Origin: a virus
Length of the DNA stretch: 33,901 nt
Strand: one strand, 5' to 3'
IMG/VR virus record: IMGVR_UViG_3300046836_000513
Location: 1-33,901 of that record
The notes beneath the pieces are model-generated. The model did not search any database. It was not told where the DNA came from and worked only from the letters and a program-made list of their open reading frames with translations. Position numbers and translations under genes: made by a program. This document shows, piece by piece, positions 5,165 to 25,814 of this stretch. How positions within the stretch are numbered: the first letter of the stretch is position 1; every line of letters begins with the position of its first letter.

Positions 5165-6643
5165 CTAAAAAAGATGGTGATAAATAGGTGCGCCTAAAAG
5201 CGATACACCAGCAATCGGACCGCCTACACCTGCAGCCCATTTAGCTACACGCTGTCTTGATAAATTATTCATAATGTCTGCAATCTGAGCCGCTGACTCA
5301 GGCGTCCTTAAATAGCCCAGTCCTTGATTGTCTAAATTACCGTAGGCATTAACGAGCGCCGTTGGATCGACATTTCGTTGAAACCCCTGCGCGCCTGGTA
5401 AATCTTGAACAGCCCCTTTTAATTTAGTGGCTAATAATAAATTCTTTGATGGATCCGATAAATTCTGACGCACTAAATCAACGGCTTGATCATTACTTTT
5501 TAATAAATTCGCAATGTTACTCGGATTAATTTGTAGCCCTTTTTTTAATACCATTTTCCTTAATGTAGGATTTTCTAAAAATGGAGCAACGGTATTTTTA
5601 TAATTTTGTCCTGCAGCCGCATATTGATTGGCTAAATCTGTATCGCCATTATTTGCTAATGAATTTGTAATATCGTTATTTAAAAGAGAACGGCCTTGTA
5701 ATAATTGACCGCCTAATTGACGAATACTGCCGTCAGGATTGGTTGCTAATTTCGCGCCTGTTTTTCCTAATTCAGACTGCAAATCATGCGCATTTGCAAA
5801 ACTTGGACTGTCTAAAAAATCACTAATGGAATCATTAATTGTTTTACTGTGTTCGCCTAAATCAATATTACTTAGAAAGTTTTGAAAGCCTTCAGGATTA
5901 ATTGCTTTTTGTGGAGTAATAGTTGAAATCCCAGGGAATTGTTTTTCAATTTCATCCGGATATCCAGATTGGCTTGCTTGATTTAATATATCTGTGTATT
6001 GCGAATTTGCCGTTTGTTTTGCAGCTTGATAATTTCCTTTAAGTTCTTCTGCCACTGGTTTTGTCGCAGATGACATTGATTGGTCGCCCAATAAATCATT
6101 TACAAAGCTCGTTGCTTTTTTACTTGCAGACAGCCCTAATTTATTTTGTAATGCATCTAAACTTCCTTTTAAACCAGCTCCGCCTAATTTAGAAAGGTCT
6201 TTAAGTGCACTTCCAACCGGTAAGTTTTCTAAACTTTCTGCAGATGGAACCACCATTGCTGCGGTTGATAAAAGATTACTGACTTGTGGTGAAGTCGTTG
6301 GAACAGCTTGTGATTCTTGAGGTAATATCTGAGACAATGGAGAAAATGGTGCCGCAACTCCACTTAAACCAGCTGCCGTTTGTGTAACAGCGCGAGGAAT
6401 TGCACCTAACACACCTTCTGCTCCAGATAATAAAATTCTCGGATTTTGTGCAACGGCAGCCGCTAAATTTCCTAATTGGGGCGCCAATATATTTAATCCA
6501 GATTGCAGCATAGAACCAAAACCAGTACTTGAGGGTTGTTCTGATTGCATCTGTGTCATTTCATCTTCTGGAATAAAATGTAATCCAGTCCCGCTTCCAG
6601 ATGGAGGTGTCATCTGATTTTCAGGAATAAAATTCATGGGCAT
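5165..6643 (-). CDS. Ejection (DNA-transfer) protein, gp16 position
   Basis: This 492-residue protein is mostly helical. It opens with two copies of a short motif, NFIPENQMT and HFIPEDEMT, seen at the N-termini of internal virion proteins. An Ala/Leu-rich stretch follows, then a long Gln/Asn-rich helical region (residues 170-440). A hydrophobic C-terminal segment (WAAGVGGPIAGVSLLGAPIY) could insert in a membrane. Its ATG shares one base with the stop of the preceding gene (TAATG). Third in a run of three such genes before the fibres, it sits where P22 has gp16. The ejection role is inferred from synteny and composition. Confidence 0.66.
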   Translation of the reverse strand: MPMNFIPENQMTPPSGSGTGLHFIPEDEMTQMQSEQPSSTGFGSMLQSGLNILAPQLGNLAAAVAQNPRILLSGAEGVLGAIPRAVTQTAAGLSGVAAPFSPLSQILPQESQAVPTTSPQVSNLLSTAAMVVPSAESLENLPVGSALKDLSKLGGAGLKGSLDALQNKLGLSASKKATSFVNDLLGDQSMSSATKPVAEELKGNYQAAKQTANSQYTDILNQASQSGYPDEIEKQFPGISTITPQKAINPEGFQNFLSNIDLGEHSKTINDSISDFLDSPSFANAHDLQSELGKTGAKLATNPDGSIRQLGGQLLQGRSLLNNDITNSLANNGDTDLANQYAAAGQNYKNTVAPFLENPTLRKMVLKKGLQINPSNIANLLKSNDQAVDLVRQNLSDPSKNLLLATKLKGAVQDLPGAQGFQRNVDPTALVNAYGNLDNQGLGYLRTPESAAQIADIMNNLSRQRVAKWAAGVGGPIAGVSLLGAPIYHHLF

Positions 6644-23945: not shown

Positions 23946-24476
23946 TTAATTAATTCCAGTTGAATAACATTGCTGGCGAGCAATCTCTAATAATCCAGCG
24001 TCTGCTTTCGTTAATACCTCTAGTAACAAATGTTTTTCATGTAAGTAAACATCTGCAAATTTTGGATCATACTTAACAATCGAGTTAGTATTGCTAATTA
24101 AATCGGCAACTTTAATTGTTTGAATATTTCCTTCGCATTTACTTAATCTTTCTCTGGACAAACGCTTTCTAGTTTCTCTATTGCCTTCTTCTAAATCGGA
24201 TAAAGCTAAAACTCCATTAGCAATCCCTGGGGAAAATTTATTCTCTAGTTCTTCAAAAGTTACACCGCAATCTTCTATACAATCATGAAGCCAAGCAATA
24301 GCTATATAACTAGGAAGTCCTGAAAAATAATACTTCTCTGCCTTTCCTATCAAAACAGATGCAGCTATTCCTGCAACTTGAGATAAATGGTCAAAATAAG
24401 GTTCATTAGTATATTTTCTTAAATGATTTTTATGAGCTTCTTTTGCAAAGAGCATAGCTTCATATGCAATATTCAT
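23946..24476 (-). CDS. MESH1/SpoT-type HD hydrolase, probable (p)ppGpp hydrolase
   Basis: At 176 residues it matches the size and motif order of the single-domain alarmone hydrolases (MESH1, 179 residues). Metal ligands and active-site residues are in place: HKNHLRK then PYFDH (H30), AWLHDCIED (H64, D65, E68, D69), and KVADLISN (D125, N129). The spacing equals that of MESH1 (H35, H61-D62, E65-D66, D122, N126). No synthetase domain is present. The likely reaction is removal of the 3'-diphosphate of ppGpp; NADPH phosphatase activity is known for MESH1 as well. For a phage this could blunt the stringent response or neutralise an alarmone-making toxin. Coupled to the next gene by ATGA. Confidence 0.85.
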   Translation of the reverse strand: MNIAYEAMLFAKEAHKNHLRKYTNEPYFDHLSQVAGIAASVLIGKAEKYYFSGLPSYIAIAWLHDCIEDCGVTFEELENKFSPGIANGVLALSDLEEGNRETRKRLSRERLSKCEGNIQTIKVADLISNTNSIVKYDPKFADVYLHEKHLLLEVLTKADAGLLEIARQQCYSTGIN

Positions 24477-24712
24477 TTTTTAGCCTTAGTTAATTTCTTT
24501 TTAAGCTCAACTGCTTTCTTCGCCCTAATCTTTGCAAACTTATTATCAACACCAACTTCCCATTTAGAATCTTTAGCTGATTCTTTTAATCCTGCTTTAC
24601 TCTCTTTCTTCTCACGTTCTTTGGCGCCTTTACCTTCAATCTTAGCTAACGTAGCAAATGTCTTTTCACGCTTTTCTACTTTTTTTAAGTCTTTAATTTT
24701 CTTAAAATTCAT
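24473..24712 (-). CDS. Lysine-rich small protein
   Basis: This 79-residue protein, about one-third Lys, is helical and charged (MNFKKIKDLKKVEKREKTFA, then GKGAKEREKKESKAG). It ends with KKLTKAKK. It overlaps the HD hydrolase gene by 4 nt and follows the upstream gene with no gap. Nucleic-acid or polyanion binding is possible. Confidence 0.62.
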   Translation of the reverse strand: MNFKKIKDLKKVEKREKTFATLAKIEGKGAKEREKKESKAGLKESAKDSKWEVGVDNKFAKIRAKKAVELKKKLTKAKK

Positions 24713-24961
24713 TTACGCAGCTCCAATTTCAAACTTTCTTTTGCAATTTTCAATTTTAATTTTTTTTGTAAATTCATCAATCAAATTGTCCAGGTATTCT
24801 TGAGTAACGTAAAAAGAATCTGTAGGTTTACTGCAAGAATAAAGAAGTTTCAGGTGTTCTAGCGCCCTAAATTCTGCTACAGAATAAGAATTCCCTAAAG
24901 GATGTAAATTTTTCTCTACAATCTTCTTGCAAAGAAATCCTAGTGCTTCTTTATAATCCAC
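24713..24961 (-). CDS. Hypothetical protein, GTG start
   Basis: This 82-residue helical protein begins with GTG at 24961, preceded by GGAG at 6 nt. The sequence contains a hydrophobic helix core (YKEALGFLCKKIVEKNLHPL) and a DSFYVTQEYLDNLIDEFTKK segment. It is the first coding sequence downstream of the tRNA-like element, whose 3' edge is 17 bp away. Function unknown. Confidence 0.62.
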   Translation of the reverse strand: MDYKEALGFLCKKIVEKNLHPLGNSYSVAEFRALEHLKLLYSCSKPTDSFYVTQEYLDNLIDEFTKKIKIENCKRKFEIGAA

Positions 24962-24977
24962 TCTTTACTCCAAAGAT

Positions 24978-25056
24978 GGGCAACGGCAAGATTCGAACTT
25001 CGCGCCTCTACTCTGCCGCTAGGGAAAGTAGTAGTCTACCGCTAACCTACGCTGCC
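24978..25056 (-). tRNA. tRNA-like element, Gly(CCC)-like, with expanded anticodon loop
   Basis: The - strand folds as a tRNA. It has a 7-bp acceptor (GGCAGCG with CGTTGCC, one G-U, extendable by a G-1:C73 pair), TA linker, D-arm (GGTT/GACT, loop AGCGGTA) and 5-bp anticodon stem (CTACT/AGTAG). The T-loop is TTCGAAT, with an imperfect T-stem containing a mismatch or bulge. The anticodon loop is 14 nt, TTCCCTAGCGGCAG, not 7. Removing TAGCGGC leaves TTCCCAG, a normal Gly-CCC loop. TAGCGG followed by YAGA also occurs in the D-arm. The next bases are ATC, so no encoded CCA. It could be a decayed tRNA or a tRNA-mimicking RNA; function is unproven. Confidence 0.6.
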
Positions 25057-25063
25057 CATAGTT

Positions 25064-25492
25064 CTATTTAGTATTAAAATACTCACACGTTGCAGTCATT
25101 GTATCTGTGCCAACATTTTCAACCCCATAAATTCTTATATAAGAGCTATAATTAGGATCGATAGACTTAATATTATATTTAATATAAATAGCTGGGGCTT
25201 TACCTGCCATTGCAAATTTACCGTTAGGCGTGTCATTTGGATTAAAAGCATAATTTGAAGAATCAATATAAAGCGTCCTAATAGGATGGACTGCAACGTT
25301 ATCAAAAACACTGCATTGAATGTTCAAACCTTCATATTGTCCTTTAACACGGTAAGCCGTTAACTGATCGTACGGCTGCAAAATAACACCTGTAAAAGGT
25401 ATTCTCATGCTAAAATCTTTAGCTGCAAATGCATTATCAGCCTGTAATACCAGCGCCAAATAAGCCACAAACATTAAACTTAAACTTTTCAT
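25064..25492 (-). CDS. Secreted/periplasmic protein of unknown function
   Basis: From the ATG at 25492 this is a 142-residue precursor. Its signal peptide is MKSLSLMFVAYLALVLQADN, then AFA with cleavage before AKDF. The mature 119 residues look all-beta (FSMRIPFTGVILQPYDQL, then TAYRVKGQYEGLNIQCSVFD), with two Cys that could form a disulphide. Phage-encoded exported beta proteins often block receptors or DNA entry, but no family is recognised here. It sits just before the tRNA-like element. Confidence 0.7.
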   Translation of the reverse strand: MKSLSLMFVAYLALVLQADNAFAAKDFSMRIPFTGVILQPYDQLTAYRVKGQYEGLNIQCSVFDNVAVHPIRTLYIDSSNYAFNPNDTPNGKFAMAGKAPAIYIKYNIKSIDPNYSSYIRIYGVENVGTDTMTATCEYFNTK

Positions 25493-25522
25493 TTTATGCT
25501 CCAAAATTAAATAACATTTTAT

Positions 25523-25584
25523 GTCCTTCTCCGCTAACTATCTATGGCCTAAGAGGGATGCAACTTTAACCATCGAAGAAGGAC
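25523..25584. repeat. Long-range inverted repeat in an intergenic gap
   Basis: GTCCTTCT (25523-25530) pairs exactly with AGAAGGAC (25577-25584), extendable by one pair outward and, across a mismatch, two pairs inward. The 46-nt interior is not coding on either strand. No T tract follows in either direction, so it is not a terminator. It may mark a structured RNA between the zinc protein and secreted protein genes. Confidence 0.45.
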
Positions 25585-25592
25585 AAAAAATA

Positions 25593-25785: not shown

Positions 25786-25814
25786 ATCATAATCATCATA
25801 TTAAACTTTGTCAA
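25786..25814 (-). promoter_or_regulatory. Strong sigma70-like promoter with doubled TATGATGAT
   Basis: On the - strand, TTGACA (25809-25814), a 17-bp spacer and TATGAT (25786-25791), 11 of 12 consensus bases. Two abutting copies of TATGATGAT cover 25783-25800, spanning the spacer end and -10. Transcription would begin 7 nt after the -10, at the ATG at 25778. Probable main promoter for the leftward terS-terL block and perhaps the virion genes. Confidence 0.8.

Follow-up and report, generated by a model that had tools for sequence, protein, structure and literature searches.

The locus and its phage setting

The stretch of DNA that we analysed as a whole (33,901 nt, hereafter the window) corresponds to a 33.9-kb virus record of IMG/VR. 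It encodes portal and coat proteins of the P22 type and has genes for head closure, terminase, RusA and replication, together with repressor-like and RecT-like genes. The gap between the stop codon of the upstream gene (25504-25064) and the GTG of the downstream ORF (24961-24713) measures 102 nt, of which 80 belong to a tRNA-derived element on the minus strand (25057-24978, GGGCAGCGTAGGTTAGCGGTAGACTACTACTTTCCCTAGCGGCAGAGTAGAGGCGCGAAGTTCGAATCTTGCCGTTGCCC; Table 1). The sequence-only reading had described a tRNA-like element tightly placed between two genes, and its coordinates, its sequence and its account of this placement were correct.

Table 1 Features of the element and its surroundings in the window
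Feature	Position	Strand	Remark
tRNA-derived element, G-1 to C73, 80 nt	24978..25057	-	Rfam RF00005 42.8 bits; ARAGORN with introns c[24977,25057]
Acceptor stem 5′ side, G-1 + GGCAGCG	25050..25057	-	8/8 pairs with 24985-24978
D-arm GGTT-AGCGGTA-GACT	25033..25047	-	4 pairs, two G-U; D-loop canonical
Anticodon arm CTACT/AGTAG	25008..25031	-	5 perfect pairs
14-nt anticodon loop TTCCCTAGCGGCAG	25013..25026	-	tip able to lengthen stem as CC-UAGC-GG
T-arm GC(G)AAG-TTCGAAT-CTTGC, G25001 bulged	24986..25003	-	
Acceptor stem 3′ side + C73, CCA not encoded	24978..24985	-	
Upstream gene, signal-peptide-like protein	25064..25504	-	L088 homologue, 31% identity
Downstream 82-aa ORF, GTG start	24713..24961	-	SD GGAG 24971-24968, directly after element
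Promoter-like TTGACA-17-TATGAT, upstream of operon	25786..25814	-	11/12 match

The upstream gene probably starts at the ATG at 25492; protein searches with it gave no matches, and the product of its homologue in the related contig L088 starts MKKFKVLLGAALVLAASSVYAG. The downstream ORF has no PHROGs match and no counterpart in the contigs L088, L096 and L098. A TTGACA box lies in L088 at the place equivalent to the promoter-like site of the window, and the element would be transcribed together with the operon.

Anatomy of the tRNA-like element

The RF00005 (tRNA) covariance model aligned to the element over its full length (positions 1-71 of 71) and scored 42.8 bits, above the cut-off of 29 (E 6.6e-8; E 1.2e-9 in a search of the whole record). 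When the entire window was scanned with Rfam defaults the element was not listed, which we read as a loss in the fast filters. ARAGORN likewise called no tRNA in the window by default; the relaxed run that the sequence-only reading had proposed recovered the element once introns were allowed, and at the normal threshold it reported exactly one gene in the window, c[24977,25057], whose anticodon loop contains a 7-nt insertion. The full-length Rfam match and this call together make the resemblance to tRNA real and beyond chance.

All 21 cloverleaf pairs (7 acceptor, 4 D, 5 anticodon and 5 T; Watson-Crick or G-U) are formed. The acceptor stem GGCAGCG/CGTTGCC (25056-25050 and 24985-24979) is extended by the extra pair of G-1 (25057) with C73 (24978). 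U8 and A9 are present, the D-stem GGTT/GACT closes the loop AGCGGTA with A14, G15, G18, G19 and A21, the V-loop is AGGC, and the T-loop TTCGAAT (TTCRA signature) and C61 are as in tRNA. These signature bases, the pairing and the Rfam score bear out the tRNA-derived nature that the sequence-only reading had proposed. The departures from a canonical tRNA amount to two indels: an anticodon loop (25026-25013) of 14 nt in place of the 7 nt that present a triplet after U33, and a bulged G25001 in the T-stem. The earlier reading had named both the long loop and a T-stem flaw, as well as the lack of an encoded CCA end, which the sequence confirms. The cloverleaf has a predicted energy of -25.2 kcal/mol with the extended anticodon arm and -18.7 kcal/mol with an open loop, the unconstrained minimum being -28.3 kcal/mol. 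Against shuffles, the fold energy shows no extra stability (z -0.90), so that the case for a tRNA is one of pattern and pairing, not of energy.

The enlarged loop and amino-acid identity

With seven extra letters in its anticodon loop the element can probably no longer translate, as a 14-nt anticodon loop is not expected to suit ribosomal decoding. The same expectation weighs against a tRNA whose altered anticodon loop evades anticodon nucleases while still decoding, an explanation that we regard as very unlikely. It draws on phage tRNAs reported to carry anticodon-loop mutations near nuclease cleavage sites (PMC10264068); in the passages on such changes there and in a second report, these are substitutions in 7-nt loops, and insertions go unmentioned (PMC10264068, PMC12482277). 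The literature on enlarged anticodon loops offers an 8-nt mitochondrial case (PMC4267643).

Removal of 7 nt restores a normal loop whose anticodon is CCC, CGC or GGC depending on the position of the cut. The sequence-only reading had arrived in this way at Gly-CCC, of which the anticodon is obtainable and the glycine identity finds no support in the acceptor end: bacterial tRNA-Gly has C2:G71 and U73 as acceptor identity, and the element has G2:C71 and C73. G-1:C73 is a His-type acceptor end, so that by its sequence the acceptor end is His-like and not Gly-like. The several removals that yield a normal loop are also what speaks for a mini-intron, 7 nt of which would be taken out after transcription to leave an intact tRNA. 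We consider this the least probable of the explanations weighed here: splicing would leave it ambiguous which anticodon results, by the usual identity rules the acceptor end is neither that of a Gly nor that of an Ala tRNA, self-splicing introns are far longer than 7 nt, and bacteria are not known to have machinery that excises such an insert.

The insert had further been taken for a copy of the element's own D-loop. The insert region TAGCGGCAGA and TAGCGGTAGA of the D-arm are identical at 9 of 10 positions (11 of 15 over 15 nt). When these 79 nt are shuffled with their dinucleotides preserved, a direct repeat of 9 in 10 appears in 6% and one of 11 in 15 in 10% of cases, and 10% of random 7-mers come within one mismatch of the element's 5′ half. 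The match is thus not above chance (shuffle P about 0.06-0.10), and duplication of the D-loop as the source of the insert is unsupported.

Absence from the site in relatives

Relatives in IMG/VR are few, and only L088 (36.6-kb contig; TerL 73% identical to that of the window) and L096 (98.8% identical to L088 across this region) span the site. In both, the upstream gene is followed after 7 nt by the homologue of 24473-24712, and the element and the 82-aa ORF are both absent. Window positions 24713-25063 thus appear as a unit, as of a movable cassette, and their joint absence is what would be expected of a dispensable one. The sequence-only reading had suggested that the element is kept and had named its absence from close relatives and drift of its stems as evidence to the contrary. 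That suggestion is weakened by L088 and L096, which lack the element and so in part supply the contrary evidence that the reading had named. The stems in the window, which have not drifted (all 21 pairs are formed), point the opposite way.

One gene away, L088 and L096 carry an intact tRNA-Asn(GTT) with a GCCA end, followed after 6 nt by a 180-nt RNA-like stretch that we call el2 (L088:2075-2254, plus strand; L096:1264-1443). It has an 8-bp acceptor-like stem, a T-arm, a GCCA end and five further hairpins (z -2.64); it belongs to no Rfam family, and ARAGORN labels it a tRNA-Leu with a 78-nt intron. The tip of its central hairpin matches the 14-nt loop of the window element at 17 of 20 positions with one gap (shuffle P 0.03-0.07), a likeness that is suggestive only. 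The next 220 nt of L088 (2255-2474), between el2 and the gene of the signal-peptide protein, hold no convincing gene.

At the place that tRNA-Asn and el2 occupy in the relatives, the window has a long intergenic hairpin (25505-25592, minus strand) with an 11-bp stem GTCCTTCTTCG/CGGAGAAGGAC (z -4.14). Checked as a second tRNA, it gave no match. With tRNA-Asn and el2 in the relatives and the element and the hairpin in the window, the locus varies in its content of structured RNA.

Wider searches

The exact 14-nt loop has 77 matches in IMG/VR, none of them in a tRNA context. DNA searches of phages, plasmids and E. coli returned nothing useful for the element, and a pattern of its 5′ half had no matches. 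A pattern of its 3′ end, run on IMG/VR and genomes, led to RNA-like elements in L084 and in L083/L086 and to two unrelated stretches. The L084 element is a 119-nt tRNA-like RNA with a long third arm (L084:4333-4451, minus strand; z -4.41) in an unrelated 66-kb phage contig, and it went unreported when that record was searched with the Rfam tRNA model. Its acceptor (GGGCAGCG/CGCTGCCC) and T-arm are almost equal to those of the window element, but because the 3′-pattern search was large the match is no evidence of homology, and judged by sequence no significant relation links either el2 or the L084 element to the window element. The same phage contig holds a YrlA match (L101:1445-1566, minus strand) that scores 38.7 bits (E 4e-6), short of the cut-off of 69. 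A 64-nt tRNA-like stretch of 24.2 bits, below the cut-off (L138:240-303; also in L086, to near 6005), occurs in a genome of Alloscardovia and in the IMG/VR copy of it; runs of T9 and G10 lie in its middle, between the acceptor-like and T-arm parts.

In 50 other viral contigs, Rfam gave 51 tRNA matches above the cut-off. Default ARAGORN, compared for 50 of these matches, called 49 and missed one, in a non-random sample whose contigs were drawn by unrelated pattern matches and in which 37 of the 49 calls fall in one contig. The missed tRNA (L136:133-219, minus strand, in L120/L136; 36 bits) has an odd D-arm and the loop CTGTAAA.

Among 369 genomes of one bacterial class, that of L087 (labelled as a gammaproteobacterial family), we found no tRNA resembling the window element. 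As a control, the tRNA-Asn of L088 had matches in 280 of the 369 genomes, with up to 89% identity, which validates the search and is suggestive of a host of this broad kind. Set against the control, the null result argues against the element being a tRNA captured recently from that class. The window portal protein had no match in the genome contigs, and the coat protein had matches of only 26-29% in 399 genomes of the phylum.

These data also bear on the tRNA sequence as a relic of the attachment site (attP) of a temperate phage. The repressor-like gene does suggest a temperate ancestor; against this, both tRNA halves are present, no integrase was seen among the large ORFs scanned in a contig that may be incomplete, and the searches turned up no host tRNA whose 3′ half is identical. 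We therefore take a relic of this kind to be extremely unlikely.

Discussion

Most likely, the element is a tRNA that was damaged in the recent past or a left-over RNA of tRNA shape, and not a new kind of machine. On balance, if not comfortably, we think it probable that it is a genuine phage-borne tRNA gene in a movable cassette that was recently inactivated. Under this proposal, an operon of a P22-like phage would have carried the tRNA gene and the small ORF that follows it as a cassette. The anticodon loop would have grown to 14 nt by an insertion of 7 nt, and in the T-stem one nucleotide would have become bulged. With the acceptor stem and T-arm intact, cleavage of the 5′ end of the transcript by RNase P and trimming of its 3′ end are still expected, and the outcome would be a short-lived or inert tRNA-shaped RNA. 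As such a product could hardly decode, the reading that suits the gene best is that of a pseudogene, a tRNA inactivated not long ago. Since all 21 pairs stand, neutral divergence of the stems since the loss of constraint is bounded at roughly 9% (42 stem bases, about 80% of changes breaking a pair, none broken); that the damage is recent is what we infer, because no insert-free sequence is known.

Three points speak against pseudogenization. Phages tend to shed dead DNA, and the element is nevertheless intact in a gap of 102 nt; furthermore, given that no match was found in the class of L087, its stems would appear to have been kept through a long divergence. Lastly, L088 and L096 have an RNA with tRNA-like ends nearby, so that selection in the operon may favour RNAs of tRNA shape. 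On the other side, tRNA pseudogenes have been documented in T4-like phages (PMC1524935) and in phage XacN1 (PMC5852040), so that the kind is already known.

It is possible, although we hold it to be clearly less probable than inactivation, that the element is retained as a non-decoding RNA. Its ends would be cut by RNase P and 3′ maturation enzymes, and it would be a stable RNA with the extended anticodon arm CUACUUU-C-CC-UAGC-GG-C-AGAGUAG, serving as a processing signal of the operon, as a decoy for tRNA-targeting enzymes or as a regulator. The preserved stems and tertiary-signature bases, a loop that can itself lengthen the stem and the tight fit between genes are consistent with retention, as are el2 in the relatives, with its similar tip, and the L084 RNA with tRNA-like ends in an unrelated phage. 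T4 RNA C, a transcribed RNA without a known function (PMC9697503), carries a canonical T-arm close to its 3′ end and may itself be a retained tRNA-like RNA that does not decode. Conversely, no homologue carrying the element was found by which its conservation could be shown, the likeness of its loop to el2 is borderline, its fold energy is ordinary, and it has a canonical D-arm and the size of a tRNA, unlike el2, the L084 element and T4 RNA C. We consider it unlikely that the element and el2 are one kind of phage RNA, in which tRNA ends for maturation would flank a specialised central hairpin with the shared tip UUYCCC(C)UAGSGGCWGA, acting as decoy or regulator and not in decoding.

Like phage class I tRNA genes (RF00005), the element has acceptor, D-, anticodon and T-arms, the signature bases of the D- and T-loops and a compact intergenic placement; it differs from them in its 14-nt instead of 7-nt loop, its T-stem bulge and the insertion that ARAGORN needs to call it. 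YrlA (Y RNA-like, RF02553) shares non-decoding tRNA mimicry, but the order of its T- and D-arms is permuted, and the element gave no match to RF02553 up to E 10. As in the phage tRNA pseudogenes of T4-like phages (PMC1524935) and XacN1 (PMC5852040), the tRNA body is recognisable and the decoding part is spoiled, although here the damage comprises two indels only and every helix is intact. T4 RNA C (species 1 RNA, rnaC) likewise comes from a phage and has a T-arm of the tRNA type towards its 3′ end; it is, however, 139 nt long, lacks a canonical D-arm, lies in a tRNA cluster and has been shown to be transcribed (PMC9697503). El2 (L088/L096) and the L084 element share a tRNA-like acceptor and T-arm around a structured middle, but they span 119-180 nt and lack a canonical D-loop. 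If the element is only a damaged tRNA, it offers a clean example of the death of a phage tRNA, in which the decoding loop goes first and the stems later. If its RNA is made and kept, it would be a tRNA mimic without an anticodon and would bear on why phages carry tRNAs and on the role of RNAs of the T4 RNA C/D type. Of greater value than the element itself may be the longer RNAs with tRNA-like ends that came to light in phages both related and unrelated to this one.
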